A stretch of 44,041 nucleotides of DNA from a virus, in IMG/VR virus record IMGVR_UViG_3300018080_000280, positions 1 to 44,041 of that record. One strand, given 5' to 3'. Made by a program: the position numbers and the translations under genes. Under the pieces are notes generated by a model that saw nothing but the letters and a program-made list of their open reading frames with translations, made no database searches and was not told the DNA's origin. Of this stretch, positions 2,061-44,041 are shown one piece after another. Positions within the stretch are counted from its first letter, which is position 1, and every line of letters begins with the position of its first letter.

Positions 2061-2695
2061 AGGAGACCCTCCTCTCTCTTCTTCTTGCGATCAAGCTCCT
2101 CCTCTGTGGGCCTGTTCCACTCTCCATCGATGTGCTTCTGCATCTTCTCGACGTCTCCGGAGAGCATCTCGTCGAACATCTTCTGAGCCTCCTCCGATCC
2201 CTTGTGCTGTTGGTACCGCTTGATCCCTCCGGCGAGGAGCTCCTTGTCGACCTGCATCCTCTCGGAGACCTGCATGAGGATCGAGACGAACCTCTCGGAG
2301 AAGGTAGGTATCCACTGATCCCTCGGTGGGGCCTGATCGTTCTGAGCCATCTGCTCCTGGGCCTCCTTGTCCTCTGTGACCCCCCTCATGATGGCGACGG
2401 GGAGGAGGTCCTCCATGCGGCAACAGATCAGGCACTCCTCGTAAGGGGTCCCCTTCTGGTGGAGAGCGAGGATCGGTATCTTCCCGCCGTCCTGCCGGGC
2501 CTTGATCCTTGCCTCCTTGAACAGGGTGTGAGTGTAGAGGTTCTGGAGGTGCTTCGCCTCGACGAAGAGGAAGGGGTGCTTGATGTCGTCCTGACCTCCC
2601 TGCTTGGTGCCGTGGGCTCCTGATCCGGGCCTCCTCACGGTGCCGAACTTGCCGGCCACCCATCTCTCGAACTTCTTCCAGGGCTTGTTAGCCAT
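2057..2695 (-). CDS. PDDEXK-fold nuclease, possibly a Holliday-junction resolvase
   Basis: 212 residues. ATG at 2695 overlaps the MCM stop as TGATG. The first 50 residues show the pattern of archaeal resolvase-like PDDEXK nucleases: FER with E10, a Gly-rich RRPGSGAHGTKQGG stretch, DDI with D36/D37, then FVEAKH with E46-x-K48. The family cuts DNA with divalent metal. The C-terminal half is helical and charged, with an acidic-basic tail. Next to MCM it probably resolves branched replication intermediates or trims DNA before packaging. The restriction-like fold is fairly secure; the resolvase role is inferred from motif spacing and context. Confidence 0.65.
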   Translation of the reverse strand: MANKPWKKFERWVAGKFGTVRRPGSGAHGTKQGGQDDIKHPFLFVEAKHLQNLYTHTLFKEARIKARQDGGKIPILALHQKGTPYEECLICCRMEDLLPVAIMRGVTEDKEAQEQMAQNDQAPPRDQWIPTFSERFVSILMQVSERMQVDKELLAGGIKRYQQHKGSEEAQKMFDEMLSGDVEKMQKHIDGEWNRPTEEELDRKKKREEGLL

Positions 2696-4803
2696 CAGTC
2701 CACCCCCATGAAGTAGACGGTCTTGTCCTTCCCATCCATCTTGGGGTAGGTGATCTCGTTCTTCTTGTAGAGGCCTTTGAGGACCTGCTTCGCCTCGGTC
2801 TCTTCCATGTCACTCTCTGCGACCATGTCGTTGATCACGTTCTCGTAGAACACCGGCTCCTTGTGAGCCCCCAGGGCGATCATCACGTTCCGGGCAAGGG
2901 TCTCCTTCTCCCTGACTGATCTCGGGGTCCCGGTGTTCAGGGTGACGATGTCGATGGTACCGTCCTCCCCGGCGGTGATCTGCTTGAGGCTCTTCTCCAG
3001 GAGATCGACAGCGAGCTCGACGTCCTGCATCTCTACCACTTCAGAGAGCCTGATCCTTGCATGGGCCTCGGCGAGCCTCTGAAGGTCCTCGAGCTGTCTG
3101 ACGGTGATGGTCCTCTCCTGCTTGACATGGAGGTTGTGACCGAAGGACCTCGGGGCCCTGATGGCGGCGTATCTCTTGGCGAGCTCCTCCCTGATCTCCA
3201 CGGGCATGATCGGCTCGAACCTCTTGGCGTACCAGATGTATTTCATGACCCACTCGGAGGGGAGCTCAGGGGCCACGGTGGAACTCTTGGGATCATAGAC
3301 ACTATCAAGGTTGTGGAGGGCGAGGTCCTCATCCCTCTCCACCTTCGGCTCGTCGAAGATAGCGAAGATCATAGAGAACCTGCTCTGCAAGGGGGCCGGG
3401 AGATCGATCTGGGGAGCGATCACCTGATCCGGATCGAAGGCTCCTCCCTTGGGGTTCGCCGCTCCGATCACGGTGGTCTGAGCTCTCAGGGTGGCCTTGA
3501 TCACCTTGGAGATCGTGATGGTCCCGTGCTCCATGCACTCGTGCATATTGCTCGTGTCCTCCTTGGTCATCTTGTCCATCTCATCGATGGCGGCGACCCC
3601 TCCGTCTGCGAGGACCATGACCCCGCCCTCGAGGGTGTAGTTCCCCTCTCCGAAGTTGTCCTTGACCACTGCCGCCGTGAGCCCTGCTCCGGAGGAGCTC
3701 TTTCCTGAAGCGTAGATGCCTCTCGGGTGGAGGTACACGATGAACTTGATCAGGATCGACTTGCCTGTCCCGGGATCACCGACGATGAGGAGATGTATCT
3801 CGCCCCTCCTCGGGGTGCCGTCGGACTTGATCCTTGTCGGAGCCCCTGTCACTGCGAGGACCATGGCGACCTTGATCTCCTCGAGGCCGTAGAGGGAGCT
3901 CGCTATGGATGAGGCGAGACGGGTCACGGCCCCAGGCTCCTTGGCGAACTTCTCGAAGGCCTCGATCTCCTCCGGAGTGATCTCGATGTCAGTGATGGAT
4001 CGCTCGTTCGAGATGTGGTTCCCCTCGAGGTATAGGGAGAACATGGAGCTCTTGCTCTTCCCCTCGTGCCTCTGCTTGCACTTGACCACAGAGGTGACGT
4101 TGACCCTGTCCCCCGGCTGGACCATATTACAGAGATCGTCCTCGATGTAGAGGGTTTTCTTGTAGGCCTGCTCGTGCCCCTCGAGCATCTCAGGTACGTC
4201 CTGGAGCTCCACCTTCTGCCTGTTGATCCAGAGAGCCTCGTGGATCATGAACTTGAAGGTGGTCGACCCTGCCCTCTTCCCACAGCCTCCATCGTCCTTG
4301 GGACACTCCAGGGGCTCGGTGAAGTGGAACTTGTCCTGGTCGATCTCTTGCTTGAAGCCGCAGGAGGAGCAGGCGAAGGCCCCCACCATGAGCCTCGGCA
4401 TGATCTCGACGACCCTGTTGACGATCCCATGGATCGCTCTGAGCTTCGAGATGTCGTCGGTGTCGATGGTCCTGGGCATCCTTCCGGTGTCGATAGGGAG
4501 AGACTTGATCCGGAGGTTCGCTCCCCAGAGCCCGGTGTCGGGCTTGATCGGCTTCCCATCCTCGTCCTTCTTCCAGACGTTGTTCTCGATCCACTTGACC
4601 ATGGCCGCCTCACCGACACGGATCGCCCTCTCAGGGGACTGAAGGAGCTCCTTGCGGTACTTCTCCGGGAGCTTGGTGAAGGGAACCACGAAGGACTTCT
4701 CCCTGGCATTGTAGGCGACCTTCAGCTTCTTGGCATAGGTCTCTGATCTGTCGAGCCATTCCAGGAACCACTGATAGATGATCTCCTCATCTACGAACGG
4801 CAT
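2695..4803 (-). CDS. mcm: MCM replicative DNA helicase
   Basis: 702 residues, near the usual archaeal MCM length. ATG at 4803 has a GGAGGAGG site 8 bases upstream and overlaps the previous gene by 13 bases; a longer in-frame extension has no such site. A zinc finger of the N-terminal domain lies at ~145-170 (CSSCGF ... ECPKDDGGCG). The AAA+ core has Walker A GDPGTGKS (~343), Walker B AIDEMDKM (~408), sensor IGAANP (~440) and the arginine finger SRFSMIFAIFDEP (~475), where many MCMs have SRFDL. The C-terminus looks like a winged helix. It would unwind viral DNA 3' to 5' as a hexamer. No primase or polymerase gene was found, so those are probably supplied by the host. Confidence 0.97.
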   Translation of the reverse strand: MPFVDEEIIYQWFLEWLDRSETYAKKLKVAYNAREKSFVVPFTKLPEKYRKELLQSPERAIRVGEAAMVKWIENNVWKKDEDGKPIKPDTGLWGANLRIKSLPIDTGRMPRTIDTDDISKLRAIHGIVNRVVEIMPRLMVGAFACSSCGFKQEIDQDKFHFTEPLECPKDDGGCGKRAGSTTFKFMIHEALWINRQKVELQDVPEMLEGHEQAYKKTLYIEDDLCNMVQPGDRVNVTSVVKCKQRHEGKSKSSMFSLYLEGNHISNERSITDIEITPEEIEAFEKFAKEPGAVTRLASSIASSLYGLEEIKVAMVLAVTGAPTRIKSDGTPRRGEIHLLIVGDPGTGKSILIKFIVYLHPRGIYASGKSSSGAGLTAAVVKDNFGEGNYTLEGGVMVLADGGVAAIDEMDKMTKEDTSNMHECMEHGTITISKVIKATLRAQTTVIGAANPKGGAFDPDQVIAPQIDLPAPLQSRFSMIFAIFDEPKVERDEDLALHNLDSVYDPKSSTVAPELPSEWVMKYIWYAKRFEPIMPVEIREELAKRYAAIRAPRSFGHNLHVKQERTITVRQLEDLQRLAEAHARIRLSEVVEMQDVELAVDLLEKSLKQITAGEDGTIDIVTLNTGTPRSVREKETLARNVMIALGAHKEPVFYENVINDMVAESDMEETEAKQVLKGLYKKNEITYPKMDGKDKTVYFMGVD

Positions 4804-5297
4804 GACTTGGCCTCCTCCCAACTTGCGAACCTCGACGAGAACTCCGTCCAGGTGATCTCGATCCCGAAGGGCTTGAACCACTCCACGAGCTCGTCCGGAT
4901 GACTGTTCGCTCTCCTTGCTACGATCTTGCGAGGCTCACTCCTTCTGTGATCAAGATCATGACAGAGGACCCACCTGGGGATCAGTTCGTTGACCTTGTC
5001 GAACCTCTCTCTGTCCATTGCTCTGATCGCATTGAGGTGGTTCTCGAGACGTTCGATCGCAGGATCATACTGCTGATCTATCTCGAGGTGCTTCGCCGCC
5101 TGCTCTCCCTTCAGGGTCCTGACCTGCTTGGTGAGCTTCTCGATCTGCCACTCTCGTGCACTGAGCCCCTGCGGGATATAGAGCTCCAGCGCCATCTCCA
5201 GGAGAGACCCTACGGTCACTCCTTCGGTCTCGCTCAAAATCTTGATGCTCTCCTTCGTTGAAGGGGGCACCCTGCCTGTTATTACTTGCTTCGCCAC
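4791..5297 (-). CDS. Ribbon-helix-helix regulator with coiled-coil tail
   Basis: 168 residues from GTG at 5297. A GTG at 5306 is also in frame but sits one base from the GAGGAG site, whereas 5297 has a 10-base spacing. Residues ~2-40 fit an RHH DNA-binding fold: a strand KQVITGRVPP, helix STKESIKILSETEG, and helix TVGSLLEMALELYI. A predicted coiled coil follows (WQIEKLTKQVRTLKGEQ), then an alpha/beta tail. It is the first gene of the MCM operon, and a four-unit GTATTAC array lies 27 bases upstream, so autoregulation is likely. Confidence 0.7.
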   Translation of the reverse strand: MAKQVITGRVPPSTKESIKILSETEGVTVGSLLEMALELYIPQGLSAREWQIEKLTKQVRTLKGEQAAKHLEIDQQYDPAIERLENHLNAIRAMDRERFDKVNELIPRWVLCHDLDHRRSEPRKIVARRANSHPDELVEWFKPFGIEITWTEFSSRFASWEEAKSCRS

Positions 5298-5323
5298 TGC
5301 TGTCACACTCCTCAGATCGGGCC

Positions 5324-5356
5324 GTATTACGTATTACGTTTCGTATTACGTATTAC
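5324..5356. promoter_or_regulatory. Candidate RHH operator: four GTATTAC units
   Basis: GTATTAC occurs at 5324-5330, 5331-5337, 5343-5349 and 5350-5356: two head-to-tail pairs, 19 bp apart centre to centre, each containing a TACGTA palindrome. RHH proteins bind such short iterated sites as dimer pairs. The array lies between the TATA box at 5431-5442 and the RHH start codon, in the predicted leader. Confidence 0.6.
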
Positions 5357-5430: not shown

Positions 5431-5447
5431 GATTATAAAAAGATTTG
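5431..5447 (-). promoter_or_regulatory. TATA promoter for the RHH-MCM operon
   Basis: On the minus strand this reads CCAAATCTTTTTATAATC, a BRE-like CCAAAT followed by a TATA element. A start about 25 bases downstream (~5410) gives a ~110-base leader containing the GTATTAC array. The T5 run may also serve as terminator of the RNA upstream. The same AATCTTT..ATAATC form precedes the portal gene. Confidence 0.55.
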
Positions 5448-5518
5448 GCCCCCGAAGTGTGACTTAAAAATCCATCTTATTCTTGGGAAGAGAGGAGAAT
5501 GGATCGGGGGCCTGAGTG
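5447..5518 (-). ncRNA. Candidate small RNA or conditional terminator, cassette 1
   Basis: A perfect 9-bp long-range stem pairs 5447-5455 (GGCCCCCGA) with 5504-5512 (TCGGGGGCC), enclosing 48 bases. The TATA box at 5542-5548 predicts a transcript start near 5518, just before the stem, and CTTTTT follows the stem. No credible protein is encoded here. The same architecture recurs at 34765-34925. It could be a small RNA, an attenuator or a DNA structural element. Confidence 0.4.
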
Positions 5519-5540
5519 CATCCTGAAGATGGAGCCCTGG

Positions 5541-5558
5541 CTATATAATGGTTCACTC
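5541..5558 (-). promoter_or_regulatory. GAGTGAA-type promoter of cassette 1
   Basis: On the minus strand it reads GAGTGAACCATTATATAGCC. The GAGTGAA box and TATA element match four other minus-strand promoters in this genome, and the TTATATAGCCAG core is identical to the one at 34948-34959. Confidence 0.6.
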
Positions 5559-5566: not shown

Positions 5567-5668
5567 AGGAGCGGTGCCCGAGAGGGTTAAGAAGAGAGGA
5601 TTGAATGATTGATGAATACATCAAAAATATACTCTCGAGCACCAGATATTCACACCCGTAGGTGAGCG

Positions 5669-31027: not shown

Positions 31028-32775
31028 TATGATCCCTCCTTGAAGTGCTTCTTCATGAAGGCGAAGGTCCTCGGAGAGGCGGCCTTCAGGTACCCGGGGT
31101 TCGTCTTGTAGATCGCATAGCACTCGGCGAAGGGCTCCATGGGTTGACGGCCCTTATCGCCGTGTCGACCCGACGGCTTCTGATGAGCATACTTCGTGAT
31201 GTCGACGTAGTCCCCTGCCATGGTGAACTCGTCAGCGAGATCGGGGTGATCCTCCAGGAGCTTGAAGTGGACCTGATGTCCGAGCTCATGGGCCACGACC
31301 CACTGGGTCTGCACTCGCATGTTCCCGAGCCGATCCCAGGCGGCACGGTTCCGGAGATATGATCCGTCCCTGATCTGATCATCCTTCCCCTGGATGCCGT
31401 AGTCCCTCTTCATGTTCCGCTCGACCTCTCTCATCTCGAGCTTGAGCTCGTCGTTGGTGTAGGCATTGAGACGGCCCGAGCTGAACTGCCTCGAGGAGAG
31501 GAGGATCGTCCCGGCGCCATCATAGGCCAGTCCCAGGGCCCCTGAGCCGGCCCCGTACCCGACCCCTATGTCCTGGACCCCCCACTTGTCGAGGTCCTCA
31601 CCGCAGGAGTGCAGGGTCGACATGACTGTCTCCTGCATCTCTGGGCTGAGCTTCTTCAGGGCGTTGTGGACCTTCCTGTCTGCCGTGAACTTCTTCCCGT
31701 TGAGCTGTTGCGATCCTTCGACCTTCATCCTCGAGAGGCCGTTGATCGTGTCGAAGTCCGTGGTATCGAGAGGGAACGAGATGCCCCTCGTCGAGGATCG
31801 GAAGGTACCGCACTCCACCCCTGCCGCCTGAAGGACCTCCCTGAGCTCGTAGGACTTCTTGCTGTCGGAGAGCTTCAGGTGCCCGTGGACCTTGTTCGAT
31901 CCCTTGTCGAGCTGGACGACCTTGAAGGACCCCACCGTGTTCTTGATGATCAGAGGTATCTTCTGATCCCCTGGGACATCCCGGAGAGCTCGGCCCACTG
32001 CCTTGAGCTCGTCCTTCTTGTCCCTGGCGGTCTTGTGCTTCTCATAGTCCCACCGCTCCCCACGCTGTTTATGAGAGGCCTTCCAGAGGTCCTTGATCTT
32101 GCCGCCGAGTTCCTGGAGCTCCTTGTCGGACTTGGGGACGAGCTTCGCCTCCGCTTCCGGATCGTAGGGCTTGAGGAACTGGCTCTGTATGTTGATGTGA
32201 CCCCTGCTCGATCCATGGACAGATTTGAACTGCCACATATCTCCGTTGCCGGGGCCCGTGATCTCGATCAGCTCCCCGTTGTAGAGGAACTTCTGCCCGG
32301 TGAAGTCTCCCGGGTCTCTCTTCGGTTCTGGTGGTTTCTGAGGAGGTTTAGGTGTCGGGGGAGCTTGAGGTCGCTTCGGTGCCGATCCCCCGGCAGGAGG
32401 CTGTAGAGCGCCATGGTTGACCCAAATCTTCGACCCGTCGGGCTTCTCGATCTGAACTCCTCCGAGACGACCCTCCTCGACCTTGAGGACCTTGACGTTC
32501 TGTCCCTTGTAGGTGGCCTCGTCCCCCACCTGGGGCTTGAACTGTTGCTTCTGAGCTCCCGGGAGCGGACGACCCTCAGCCCTGGCCTTGGCTCGCTCCT
32601 GTTGCTCTGTCTCGTAGTAGAGGCCTCCGTTCTCTCCTCTCTTGACGACCGCATATCGGGGGACCTGACGAGCATCCTTCACGTAGACCCTCTTCTTCAT
32701 CGCAGTGCCTATATCGACGAGGAAGCCCCACTTGCTGTGGTGGAGCGGCGTCCGCACTGCGATCGAGGGGGTCAT
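31027..32775 (-). CDS. Virion-associated zinc metallopeptidase candidate
   Basis: 582 residues; ATG at 32775 overlaps the portal stop as ATGA. The C-terminal domain has the zincin motif VVAHELGHQVHF (~492-503) and a later E in EPFAECYAIYKTNP (~550) that could be the third zinc ligand, as in gluzincins. The N-terminal ~200 residues hold two SH3-like beta segments (FKPQVGDEATYKGQNVKVLK; GDFTGQKFLYNGELIEITG) around a Pro/Lys-rich linker. Coupling to the portal suggests it is packaged in the head and injected, or processes head proteins. Peptidase activity and target are inferred. Confidence 0.7.
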   Translation of the reverse strand: MTPSIAVRTPLHHSKWGFLVDIGTAMKKRVYVKDARQVPRYAVVKRGENGGLYYETEQQERAKARAEGRPLPGAQKQQFKPQVGDEATYKGQNVKVLKVEEGRLGGVQIEKPDGSKIWVNHGALQPPAGGSAPKRPQAPPTPKPPQKPPEPKRDPGDFTGQKFLYNGELIEITGPGNGDMWQFKSVHGSSRGHINIQSQFLKPYDPEAEAKLVPKSDKELQELGGKIKDLWKASHKQRGERWDYEKHKTARDKKDELKAVGRALRDVPGDQKIPLIIKNTVGSFKVVQLDKGSNKVHGHLKLSDSKKSYELREVLQAAGVECGTFRSSTRGISFPLDTTDFDTINGLSRMKVEGSQQLNGKKFTADRKVHNALKKLSPEMQETVMSTLHSCGEDLDKWGVQDIGVGYGAGSGALGLAYDGAGTILLSSRQFSSGRLNAYTNDELKLEMREVERNMKRDYGIQGKDDQIRDGSYLRNRAAWDRLGNMRVQTQWVVAHELGHQVHFKLLEDHPDLADEFTMAGDYVDITKYAHQKPSGRHGDKGRQPMEPFAECYAIYKTNPGYLKAASPRTFAFMKKHFKEGS

Positions 32776-34682
32776 GCGAGGATGTCCTCCCCGCCGAACT
32801 GGGGAGGCTTCTTCCCCTTCATGGCGCCGCCGCCCTGGAGATCACTACCCGCTCCGAACATGTCCGGGCCTTGACCTCCTCCGAAGATGTCTCCTTCATC
32901 TGCCTCGTCACCGAAGGGGTTCTGGTTCCCCTGCATCTCATCGGGCTCCTTGTATTGCCCGGTGTAGACGTTCTCGATCCGATCCGTGCCCTCTCTCCTC
33001 TTGACCTTGAGGCCGAGGTTCAGGCCCTTCTCAGCGTTCTCGAGGACCTTGGCGACCCTCTCCTCTTCAGTGCTGTCGTTCTGCGGCTCCGGAGGTACTT
33101 GCTCGAGCCGCCATGCTTCGATCTTCCAGAGGTCCTTGGCGTACCACTTCCAGGCCCCATCGTTGTCGATGTCCTGGTATCCCTGCACCCTTCCGGCGCT
33201 GATGGTGACGTCCATGCTGTCGTTCCCGAGCCCTCCTCCTGCATCCGGTGATCCACGGACTGATGGGGTCACTCCGTACATGATCGAGATGTAGTTGTCG
33301 AGCTGATCGTTGGACTTGACGGCGTCGAGCTGTTGAGCATCGTAGTCGAGCTTGATGGCGCCAGCAGGCTGTCCCTTCGCCTCGCTGTCTGCCATGATCC
33401 AGGCCTCCTCCTTCGAGGCCCATGCCTGCTTCATGAAGTTGACGAACTCCTTGAACGAGTTCAGTGAGTTGGCCGCCACCCACTTCAGGACGTTGTTCGA
33501 CTGCTTGGTCCTGTAAATGTTGAGCCAGTAGCGGTACCCGTAAATCTTGATCATGATCACGTCGGACAGGGTCTCGATCGGGGACATGGAGAACCGGAGA
33601 CCATCGGGGAAGAACGGGGTCCAGTGATACTCGCCCTCGATGTAGTAGCGGCATCCGTCCCCTTCGTCTGCTCCGAAGGGTGACACGATCAGGTGAACGT
33701 CATAGAGCCGGGTGTTATTGCAGTGAGGGCACTTCGCAGGGGGCTGTCCCTTCACTCCCTTCTCGGGCCGGTAGTTGTCATACTGATCCCGGCAGGCGAG
33801 GCACACCCAGTAGATGCCTCCCTTGTTCCCGAAGTCGTCCTCGATCTTCTTCACCATCTCCTCGGGGGCCGTGGTGATCCCTCTGGGCTTCGTCACCATG
33901 GGCTCCCCGTCGGCGTCCTTGAGATCGGGGTCGTTGATGATCTCCCCGGACTGCCCGAGGTGATACTCGTTCATGGCGAAGTAGTATCCGTTACCGAGGG
34001 TAAGGACGTCCCTGTCGTGGACGTTCTGGAGATGGTTGAGAGACACCTGCGGATCGGTCGGGACAGGGTGCTCGAGGAGCTCATCGGCCTCTCGATACTC
34101 CTCCGGATCAGGGGTCTCAAGGACCCCATCACAGCCCGGCTCCTCGCAGTGGAATATCTCTTCTTCCTTCTCCGCCTCCTCACCCTCGGCCCCTCCGTCC
34201 GGAGAGGAGAGGTCCGGGGGTGGAGGGCTCACGGGTGTCTCACTCTGGGCAGTGGCGAGAGGGTCGTCTGATTGTTCAGGATCGAAGGGGTTCTGGTCAT
34301 CAGGGGGGGAAGTGGGGTTCTCGATCTCCTTCTGTTCGGGCAGGGCAGGATACTCCTTGCCGCACTTGGGGCACTTGGCGGCATACTCCTCCTTCCAGAC
34401 GAGCCCTCTCCGGTTCTTCTCCTGAAGGATGATATGAATGGAGGATCGGGTCATGGGCTCCTTGTAGGCCATGTAGATGAGCTCCCTGGCGGTGTGCTCT
34501 CCATAGACCCGGTCCCAGACCTTCGGCATGATGGTGGAACCTGCACCGAAGGGCTTGCCTCCCTTGTCTCCTTGAGCTGGCTCCTTGGTCGTCACGACGA
34601 TCCCCAGGAAGCCTTCTTTCGTCTTGCCTCCTGCGGCCTTGACCGTGCCGATGATCCTTGATAAAACTCGATTTGACCCCAT
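32772..34682 (-). CDS. Portal protein with inserted zinc ribbons
   Basis: 636 residues; ATG at 34682 lies ~30 bases from the TATA centre, so its mRNA may be leaderless or nearly so. Portal-like features: ELIYMAYKEPMTRSSIHIIL near the N-terminus, a central WTPFFPDGLRFSMSPIETLS region, the helix QLDNYISIMYGVTPSVRG (~450), and an acidic Gly-rich end. Two Cys clusters interrupt the fold: C104/C107 with C179/C184, and C294/C297 with C318/C321, each looking like a zinc ribbon. The first is split by a ~70-residue Pro/Asp/Glu-rich insert. Confidence 0.75.
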   Translation of the reverse strand: MGSNRVLSRIIGTVKAAGGKTKEGFLGIVVTTKEPAQGDKGGKPFGAGSTIMPKVWDRVYGEHTARELIYMAYKEPMTRSSIHIILQEKNRRGLVWKEEYAAKCPKCGKEYPALPEQKEIENPTSPPDDQNPFDPEQSDDPLATAQSETPVSPPPPDLSSPDGGAEGEEAEKEEEIFHCEEPGCDGVLETPDPEEYREADELLEHPVPTDPQVSLNHLQNVHDRDVLTLGNGYYFAMNEYHLGQSGEIINDPDLKDADGEPMVTKPRGITTAPEEMVKKIEDDFGNKGGIYWVCLACRDQYDNYRPEKGVKGQPPAKCPHCNNTRLYDVHLIVSPFGADEGDGCRYYIEGEYHWTPFFPDGLRFSMSPIETLSDVIMIKIYGYRYWLNIYRTKQSNNVLKWVAANSLNSFKEFVNFMKQAWASKEEAWIMADSEAKGQPAGAIKLDYDAQQLDAVKSNDQLDNYISIMYGVTPSVRGSPDAGGGLGNDSMDVTISAGRVQGYQDIDNDGAWKWYAKDLWKIEAWRLEQVPPEPQNDSTEEERVAKVLENAEKGLNLGLKVKRREGTDRIENVYTGQYKEPDEMQGNQNPFGDEADEGDIFGGGQGPDMFGAGSDLQGGGAMKGKKPPQFGGEDILA

Positions 34683-34704: not shown

Positions 34705-34720
34705 GGATTATAAAGATTAG
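34705..34720 (-). promoter_or_regulatory. TATA promoter of the portal operon
   Basis: On the minus strand it reads TAATCTTTATAATCC. The TATA centre is ~30 bases before the portal ATG, so transcription would start almost at the start codon. The same AATCTTT..ATAATC form precedes the RHH-MCM operon at 5431-5447. Confidence 0.6.
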
Positions 34721-34764: not shown

Positions 34765-34925
34765 ATAAAATTAGAAGCGGCCCCCCTCGGTGCATCCCAA
34801 AACGTCCCATTCCCACAGTGGAGAGTAGTTTCCGAAGGGGGCCAGTGTTAGATGTAGGGGCCCCACCCACAGACAAAAAGACTGGAGATCATCATGTCCG
34901 GGACGTATCCCGGGTGGGGCCTCGC
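34765..34925 (-). ncRNA. Candidate structured RNA, cassette 2
   Basis: Two long-range stems lie in tandem. Stem A pairs 34859-34868 (GGCCCCACCC) with 34912-34921 (GGGTGGGGCC), 10 bp, with a competing CCGGGA-CGTA-TCCCGG hairpin at 34898-34913. Stem B pairs 34779-34790 with 34832-34843, 12 bp; its single mismatch is C-A on the plus strand but G-U on the minus strand, so the structure fits a minus-strand RNA. The TATA box at 34949-34955 predicts a start near 34925. T-rich sequence follows stem B. No protein is encoded here. Confidence 0.45.
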
Positions 34926-34947
34926 CATGTAAACATGGAAGTGCTGG

Positions 34948-34964
34948 CTATATAACGGTTACTC
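34948..34964 (-). promoter_or_regulatory. GAGT-AA-type promoter of cassette 2
   Basis: On the minus strand it reads GAGTAACCGTTATATAGCC, one base shorter than the box at 5541-5558 but with the same TTATATAGCCAG core. It overlaps the stop codon of the gene ending at 34959. Confidence 0.6.
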
Positions 34965-35234: not shown

Positions 35235-35523
35235 CTTCCTCGACCTCCTTGCTGACAAGCATATCGTAGTATGTCTTGCCTCTTCTGTTCATCTCCTCCC
35301 CGATCCTGAACTGCACCGCCATGAACGTGTTCGCCTGCCTCTGGAGCCGGGCGTTGGCGTCAGGGTTGTGGTTCTCGGGGAGCTTGGCTCTGTTATCGAT
35401 CTCGATGAGCTTCACCTTGATGTATCCAAGGATCGCCTCCATCCAGTCCATCGGCATCTTCTGGAGCGCCTTCTGGTTCACGTAGACGCTCTCGATCTCG
35501 GGGGGGATGTGAACCATGATCAT
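35218..35523 (-). CDS. Hypothetical helical protein next to the chaperonin
   Basis: 101 residues; ATG at 35523 overlaps the chaperonin stop as ATGA. Mostly helical (YVNQKALQKMPMDWMEAILG, NARLQRQANTFMAVQFRIGE). Immediate coupling to the chaperonin gene raises the idea of a cofactor or client, but nothing in the sequence proves it. Confidence 0.6.
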   Translation of the reverse strand: MIMVHIPPEIESVYVNQKALQKMPMDWMEAILGYIKVKLIEIDNRAKLPENHNPDANARLQRQANTFMAVQFRIGEEMNRRGKTYYDMLVSKEVEEDGDSS

Positions 35524-37172
35524 CCCATCCCTGGTGGGGGCCCCTGCTGAGGACCTTGTGGAGGCTGACCCGGCTGTCCGAGGTCCATCCCCTTCGAGGC
35601 GATCACGTCATCGATCCGGAGGATCATCGTGCAGGTCTCTACAGCGCCTACCAGGGCCATTTCGACGAGCTTGTGAGGTTCAACTACCTCCAAGGCCCTC
35701 ATGTCCTCTACGGTCCCCGTAACGACGTTCACACCGTGATACTTGTGTCCCTCGGTGTGGGCCTTCCGGAGGTTCAGGATCGTGTCGATCTTGTCCAGGC
35801 CGGCGTTCTCTGCGAGGGTCCTGGGGATCGCTTCCATGGCCTTAGCGAAGCCCTTGACAGCGAAGGACCTTCTCCCCTCGATCTCGTTCGCATACTTCTC
35901 GAGGGCGAGGACGATCTCCATGAAGGAGCTCCCTCCGCCGATGTTCACGAGGCCTTCCTCATAGGCGACCCCTACGGTCGACAGGGCGTCGTGGATCGAT
36001 CTCTCGATCTCGTCGACCACGTGATCCGTGGCTCCCCTGACGAGGATCGTCTGGATCGGGAAGGTCCCCTGCTCATCCCCTGCGGTCAGGTAGACGTGGA
36101 GAGCTCCCTCGTGCTTCTTCTCGCTGTAGAGGCACCTGCCGGTCTTGCCCTTGAGGTCCTTGGCCTTGGATGTGATCGTGGCTCCGGTGGCCCTGGAGAG
36201 CATGTCCATCTCCTCCTCTGTGACCCTGCGGAAGCCGATGATCCCGTTCTCCTCGAGCATCCCTGCGGCCTCGTCGGAGATGTCCTTCTGCACGAAGAGG
36301 ACGTTGATCCCTGCCTCGGTCACTCCATCGATCAGCTTGAGGAGCTCCTGATCATCACGATCCATGAGCTTCTCCAGCTCCTCGACCTGTTGGATGTTCA
36401 CCGAGTGATCCTTCACCCTGAGCGATCCGGAGAGGAGGCCTATGTTGACGAGACCGTCGGAGAGGTCCGCCCTCATGCCCTTGGAGGCCTTGTCCTTCTT
36501 GATCACGAGACCGTTGATCCTGTTGGTCGCTCCCACTGCCTTGCCCTTGAGCTTGACCACAGCGACATCCTCGAGGTCCACCATGTCCTCCTGTCCGGAG
36601 GGGCCCTTCGCTATCGCAAGGATCACGTCGACCACGAGCTCGGCGAGATCGTGCTTGTTCTCCTCGGTGCTCTTCCCGGTCATGGATGTCATGGCGACAG
36701 AGAGCAGGGTATCCCTGACCCCCTCGTTCTGCATCCCGTGGGCGATCGAAGGGGCGCATCCTCTGAGGACCTCGAGGGCCTTCTTGAGGGCGAGCTGATA
36801 CCCCTCGACGATCACCGTCGGGTGGATGTTCTCCTTGATCAGAGGCTTGGCCTCCTGGAGGAGCTCCCCTGTCAGGATCACGGTGGAGGTGGTACCATCA
36901 CCGCACTCGTCGTCCTGGGTCTTGGCCGCTTCGATCACCATCTTGGCGGCAGGGTGCTCGACATCGAGCTCCTTGAGGATCGTCACCCCGTCGTTGGTGA
37001 TGATCGTGTCTCCCATCCCGTCCACGAGCATCTTGTCCATGCCCTTCGGCCCGAGAGTTGTTCTCACGGCGTCTGCGATGGCAGAGCCGGCGTCTATGTT
37101 CAGTATCAGGGCTGGCTCGCCCTGCTCTCTCTGAGTTCCTTGCTTCAATACCAGTATGGGTTGTCCCATCAT
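35520..37172 (-). CDS. Group II chaperonin (thermosome subunit)
   Basis: 550 residues, full family length; ATG at 37172 (or the next codon) after GGAAGGTG. All key parts are present: [18 protein letters not shown] (38-54), DGVTILKEL, the nucleotide-site [10 protein letters not shown] (91-100), an intact apical domain with the helical protrusion ([16 protein letters not shown]), [20 protein letters not shown] (~405-425), and a closing [10 protein letters not shown]. The tail ends [11 protein letters not shown], close to the GGM-type tails of archaeal thermosomes. It would fold or assemble virion proteins as an 8- or 9-fold double ring. It lies in a run of small genes between terminase and portal, so it is probably used in head assembly. 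Confidence 0.97.
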
Positions 37173-38476: not shown

Positions 38477-38519
38477 CCCATCCCTCCTGTTGACAGCGAG
38501 CGTCATAATGGTGCTATGA

Positions 38520-38538
38520 CGTTTATAAAATTTCACTC
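38520..38538 (-). promoter_or_regulatory. GAGTGAA-type promoter
   Basis: On the minus strand it reads GAGTGAAATTTTATAAACG. It overlaps the terminase stop codon and predicts a start near 38500, giving a ~22-base leader that holds the AGGAGGG site of the gene at 38476. Confidence 0.65.
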
Positions 38539-43810: not shown

Positions 43811-44041
43811 TTAGAGGGTCCCGTGCGGCTTGCTGACCCTATTCGGGCCCTTTCTATTCCTCCTGTGTCGTCTAATGGCATCACTTCGGAGCTCGCACTG
43901 CGGACAACAAGGATCATCCTTCTTCCTGGGGAGCCCTGGGGCGATCCCCATGGGGTCCTTCCTCTTGTCGCAGTGAGCGCACTGGAAGCGGTCCTCTATG
44001 GTAATCTCAGGGCGCCATGCCTTGCAGTCCCCGCACTTCTC
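43811..44041 (-). CDS. Zinc-ribbon microprotein, C-terminal part (second copy of the junction)
   Basis: This is the end of the gene that starts at 129. The repeat makes residues 3-43 appear again at 44041-43919; from 43918 the frame runs on to a TAA at 43811. The added part contains CCPQC, completing the Cys set, then a very basic tail (RRHRRNRKGPNRVSK). The uninterrupted frame across the junction is good evidence for a circular or permuted map. Confidence 0.75.
   Translation of the reverse strand, partial: EKCGDCKAWRPEITIEDRFQCAHCDKRKDPMGIAPGLPRKKDDPCCPQCELRSDAIRRHRRNRKGPNRVSKPHGTL
43919..44041. repeat. Terminal direct repeat, right copy
   Basis: Identical to bases 1-123. Removing one copy leaves 43,918 unique bases. 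Confidence 0.95.

Follow-up and report, generated by a model that had tools for sequence, protein, structure and literature searches.

Twin cassettes of promoter-like sites and GGCCCC-core stems at the heads of two gene arcs in a tailed archaeal virus genome

The gap at positions 5431 to 5558, which precedes a replication operon, raises the question of whether two intergenic regions of one viral genome carry the same regulatory module and, if so, what that module might do. The window, by which we mean the whole stretch of DNA analysed, is a virus record of 44,041 bases whose two ends (1 to 123 and 43919 to 44041) are exact direct repeats of 123 bp; because of this repeat, the genome is probably complete, with a length of about 43.9 kb, and either circular or terminally redundant. 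Genes in the window lie almost entirely on the minus strand and encode an MCM, a group II chaperonin, a portal, a major head protein, a terminase and tail proteins, a set from which we conclude that this is a tailed archaeal virus. The MCM replicative helicase gene (2695 to 4881, minus strand) matched Pfam MCM with E 3.7e-69, and the first gene 3' of the second gap (32772 to 34682, minus strand) matched the portal family phrog_18178 with E 1.7e-21. On a circular map the two gaps, here called cassettes 1 and 2, divide the genome into a 14.5-kb arc, running from a ribbon-helix-helix (RHH)-like gene and MCM to terminase and chaperonin, and a 29.4-kb arc of portal, capsid and tail genes. Given the terminal repeat, each cassette probably heads a unidirectional arc on a circular genome, and their positions support the expectation that promoter pairs head the replication and structural gene blocks.

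All cassette elements lie on the minus strand in both gaps. The first promoter-like site, A, contains the TATA box TTATATAGCCAG and is preceded by GAGTGAACCA in cassette 1 (5537 to 5548) and by GAGTAACCG in cassette 2 (34944 to 34955), where GAGTAACCG overlaps the stop codon of the upstream gene. TTATATAGCCAG has no exact copies in the window other than these two (5548-5537 and 34955-34944). As the TATA motif of archaeal promoters begins at about −26 (PMC8707807), we predicted by analogy that transcription from A would start at about 5521 and 34928, respectively. A second promoter-like site, B, lies nearer to the genes: AATCTTTTTATAATC in cassette 1 (5431 to 5445), the presumed promoter of the RHH-MCM operon, and in cassette 2 (34706 to 34718) the similar AATCTTTATAATC, two bases shorter, the presumed promoter of the portal and structural operon. 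Local alignment of the promoter blocks of the two cassettes gave 27, with about 27 nt aligned, a result equalled in 8 of 500 shuffles; by itself, the likeness of these blocks is modest. Another promoter-like site, GAGTGAAATTTTATAAA, was seen at 38500 to 38538, with an inverted repeat (CGTCATA..TATGACG) directly after it, near the expected start, and a sequence similar to it, GAGTGAAACTTTTAAA, at about 10985 to 10970.

Between A and B, each cassette contains inverted repeats that could pair across long loops. In cassette 1, stem E1 (5447 to 5512) joins GGCCCCCGA (5512-5504) to TCGGGGGCC (5455-5447) in nine perfect pairs around a 48-nt loop, in which there is a T5 run at 5470-5466; a further T5 run right after E1 (5437 to 5441) overlaps the TATA box of promoter B and is likely to be a U-tract terminator for RNA made from promoter A. 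In cassette 2, stem E2 (34859 to 34921) joins GGCCCCACCC (34921-34912) to GGGTGGGGCC (34868-34859) in 10 Watson-Crick pairs around a 43-nt loop, which contains an inner hairpin, CGGGAUACGUCCCG, and a T5 run at 34879-34875. The original prediction, that a promoter, a 9-bp stem, a T5 run and a second promoter lie in order before the replication operon, was thus correct in each element, and the TATA-to-stem distances it gave as 33 and 31 bases were measured from the TATA center as 32.5 nt in cassette 1 and 30.5 nt in cassette 2 (36 nt for E1 and 34 nt for E2 when counted from the first T of TTATATAGCCAG to the start of the stem). The predicted recurrence of this order before the portal operon held in outline, but in cassette 2 the T5 run is inside the E2 loop, and a second stem, E3, intervenes before promoter B.

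E3 and a further stem in cassette 1, E0, went beyond what had been described. E3 (34779 to 34843) joins GGCCCCCTTCGG (34843-34832) to CCGAGGGGGGCC (34790-34779) in 12 pairs, one of them G-U, around a 41-nt loop, with T4 runs within it (34802-34799) and after it (34770-34767). E0 (5572 to 5644), which lies upstream of promoter A and lacks the GGCCCC core, pairs 5644-5632 with 5584-5572 in 13 pairs (two G-U) around a 47-nt loop; it has a T5 run in the loop (5627-5623) and a T6 run just downstream (5564-5559), so that T4 to T6 tracts occur in or after every one of the elements E0 to E3. The GGCCCC core is identical in E1, E2 and E3, and their outer spans vary little (66, 63 and 65 bp). Outside the core the arms differ in sequence and still pair (CGA with TCG, ACCC with GGGT, and CTTCGG with CCGAGG), from which it appears that the paired form rather than the sequence has been kept; with three copies, and so no covariation test, this is suggestive of a paired structure rather than a simple protein site.

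To what extent could such an arrangement arise by chance? GGCCCC followed by GGGGCC at a distance of 30 to 58 nt occurred three times in the 44 kb, exactly at E1, E2 and E3, against 0.22 expected and with none of 100 shuffles reaching three; likewise each gap held two strong stems against 0.08 and 0.05 expected, a number reached in 1 of 300 and 0 of 300 dinucleotide shuffles, although these tests were framed after the pattern had been seen and the quoted chances are somewhat optimistic. Watson-Crick stems of at least 8 pairs with loops of 35 to 55 nt numbered 17 in the window, three of them in the two gaps, where 0.25 were expected. In about 1.1 to 1.18 Mb of other viral and archaeal DNA, GGCCCC..GGGGCC pairs were absent except at loci that had been selected by such a pattern. 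The GGCCCC hexamer alone is common (79 sites in the window), and stems of comparable strength occur elsewhere in the window (18 on the minus strand); the case therefore rests on concentration and arrangement. Of the shared core words to which the original prediction pointed, it is the GGCCCC..GGGGCC pairs that are confined to the two gaps, but not the word itself, while its argument that chance was unlikely came out stronger than it had been put. Relative to shuffled sequences, folding gave z of −3.1 to −3.3 for E1, −3.0 for E2 and −2.2 for E3; the whole cassette 2 segment, with E2 and most of E3, folded no better than its shuffles (z −0.27). We conclude that the twin feature opening each of the gene arcs is real and non-random: the elements, their pairing and their operon positions are seen in the sequence, and their concentration exceeds chance.

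We tentatively propose, at rather less than even confidence, that the gaps are paired transcription-start modules, in which A would make a short end-paired RNA or a hairpin-headed leader and B would start the operon mRNA. Promoter A would begin an RNA about 8 to 10 nt before the GC clamp of E1 in cassette 1, or of E2 and then E3 in cassette 2, and the 5' end of this RNA would pair, through the long-loop stem, with a point 60 to 65 nt downstream. Archaeal termination is driven by U-tracts and aCPSF1, with no strict requirement for a hairpin (PMC8716108), and since U-tracts lie in and after the stems, an early end of the RNA from A would be expected. Release at these tracts would yield stable end-paired RNAs of about 80 nt from cassette 1 and about 160 nt from cassette 2, whereas RNA polymerase reading through them would instead produce a hairpin-headed leader; the operon mRNA itself would start at promoter B. 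The last U-tract of cassette 1 is at the same time the TATA box of B, and activity of A would therefore be expected to interfere with B. Promoter activity, the ends and stability of the RNAs, and any role in timing are what we infer here from sequence. We regard as unlikely the more specific idea that E1, E2-E3 and perhaps E0 would form a family of end-paired noncoding RNAs with a shared type of promoter, and that termination on the operon TATA box would act as a switch timing replication against structural gene expression.

The most serious alternative is that the cassettes are plain boundaries between operons, with U-tract terminators, ordinary promoters, and stems that serve only as 5'-end protection of mRNA or as roadblocks, so that there would be no separate RNA or switch. 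Each cassette lies precisely at the junction between one arc and the next, the T5 and T6 runs ahead of promoter A in cassette 1 are placed as expected if the incoming structural operon terminates there, and the U-tract and aCPSF1 basis of archaeal termination (PMC8716108) agrees with such a function; but the common arm core, the span of 63 to 66 nt shared by three elements, and the identical stacking order of two promoter-like sites in the two gaps would remain unexplained, and we consider this explanation somewhat unlikely. Less likely still, in our judgment, is a conditional leader, in which A could drive the operon and the stem and U-tract would form an attenuator that some viral or host factor overrides, so that replication and structural genes are coordinated as in the originally predicted switch. 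Such a leader would fit both gaps, where promoter A and a hairpin come before promoter B with intervening U-tracts, but the folds we made contained no alternative (antiterminator) structure, no antitermination factor was identified, and archaeal termination does not strictly need the hairpin (PMC8716108); that fact and the loops of 41 to 48 nt make the predicted antiterminator-type switch, in the bacterial sense, unlikely. The least probable explanation is that paired GGCCCC sites about 60 bp apart act at the DNA level as sites for protein binding, replication or packaging, to which the common hexamer, the near-constant outer spans and the location of one element near MCM and one near the portal gene lend some color, but a binding protein would not require arms that differ outside the core and yet remain complementary, neither cassette coincides with a turning point of cumulative skew, and the RHH-like protein probably has an operator of another sequence. 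An origin of replication at the cassettes was rejected for the same lack of a skew turning point, the extremes being at about 13.1 and 42.9 kb.

That operator belongs to the RHH-like gene, the first after cassette 1 (4791 to 5297, minus strand), which has a GTG start after GAGGAG. Its product matched Pfam Antitox_RHH with E 0.063, below the cut-off, and its structure model has helices at residues 12 to 25 and 29 to 40 and found no fold match in the PDB; the RHH assignment is accordingly weak. Between promoter B and this gene are four direct copies of CGTATTAC (5323 to 5356, plus strand; 0.10 expected), probably an operator for the RHH-like protein. As cassette 2 has none of these repeats, the twin cassettes are not equivalent.

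If the paired start modules made RNAs of a known kind, they might be recognized by family or by target. The Rfam 15 covariance models gave no match above gathering score in the window, the best weak matches having E 0.25 or worse, which is at chance level, and no credible tRNA or C/D-type match was found. By eye, there was neither a fitting pocket nor an ACA for an H/ACA guide, and there were no GGY/NN repeats of the kind described for VIPR guide RNAs (PMC13142463), so both readings were set aside. Pairing of the loops with start regions of viral genes was matched by shuffled loops in 6 of 60 cases for E0, 28 of 60 for E1, 59 of 60 for E2 and 21 of 60 for E3, showing that target pairing within the virus was not above that of shuffled loops. 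Neither the Rfam nor the pairing result, then, favored the small RNAs that had been predicted.

We also looked for a near relative in which the cassettes might be conserved. None was found by protein with MCM, terminase, capsid or an MCM alignment among viral contigs, with portal among archaeal genomes and genome contigs, or with a thermosome alignment; beyond MCM at about 30% and portal at about 25%, these searches brought up nothing but remote relatives of phrog_17057 and viral thermosomes that are unrelated. In each of two viral contigs (L040 and L044) an MCM (28.5% identical) occurs together with a thermosome-like gene (29%), which distantly recalls the gene set of this virus. The group II (thermosome-type) chaperonin gene itself (35520 to 37172) is 44% identical to Thermoplasma thermosome beta; the nearest cellular matches found for it were mostly from Thermoplasmatota (48%), and 31 other viral contigs, mostly unrelated, also encode a chaperonin of this type. 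The phage records contained no related DNA and gave a single 30-nt match, to mycobacteriophages. The pattern TTATATAGCCAG..GGCCCC had three matches in viral contigs, all in one coding sequence of an unrelated virus. A search with TATA plus GGCCCC..GGGGCC matched four contigs, and its swapped-arm control matched 2 contigs; the resulting look-alike in the terminase-portal operon leader of L057 and L059 (at L057:506-611, on a contig of an unrelated virus, TATA followed by GGCCCCTAC..GTGGGGGCC) folded with z −0.98 and was set aside as chance.

To our knowledge, what has been learned of gene-block regulation in tailed viruses of archaea comes from very few systems (HF2, HFTV1 and phiH1). If the proposal of paired start modules is correct, the module heading each arc would be a cis-acting timing device that is concrete and open to test, and a rare instance of a structured RNA encoded by a virus of archaea. 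A bacterial intrinsic terminator or attenuator has a short-loop GC hairpin, a U-run and an antiterminator fold, whereas the cassettes have loops of 41 to 48 nt and no alternative fold. The archaeal U-tract and aCPSF1 terminators (PMC8716108) resemble the T4 to T6 runs where the RNA from promoter A would end; that signal, however, does not include the GC stem and 41- to 48-nt loop seen here. The antisense RNAs of HFTV1 (PMC12542753) and, as far as its citation describes it, the phiH1 counter-transcript (cited in PMC8707807) are noncoding and are thought to set the timing of gene blocks, but they are antisense to genes, whereas the cassette RNAs would be sense-strand, intergenic and closed by a stem. 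Among known kinds, the closest is the set of promoter-bearing intergenic repeats in the halovirus HF2 (Haloferacalesvirus). These repeats, of Class I and Class II, carry the TATA promoters that head early-middle and late transcripts, and in one of them, IR4.5, a 9-bp inverted repeat replaces the motif containing the start site (PMC8707807). The cassettes are like these repeats in role and position, and in having a TATA-containing sequence common to the intergenic regions (exact TTATATAGCCAG in both gaps), without being members by sequence. The HF2 repeats are 58 or 29 bp in length and share long blocks, whereas the cassettes share only the promoter core and the hexamer arms, and have diverged, long-loop stems and two types of promoter stacked in each gap.
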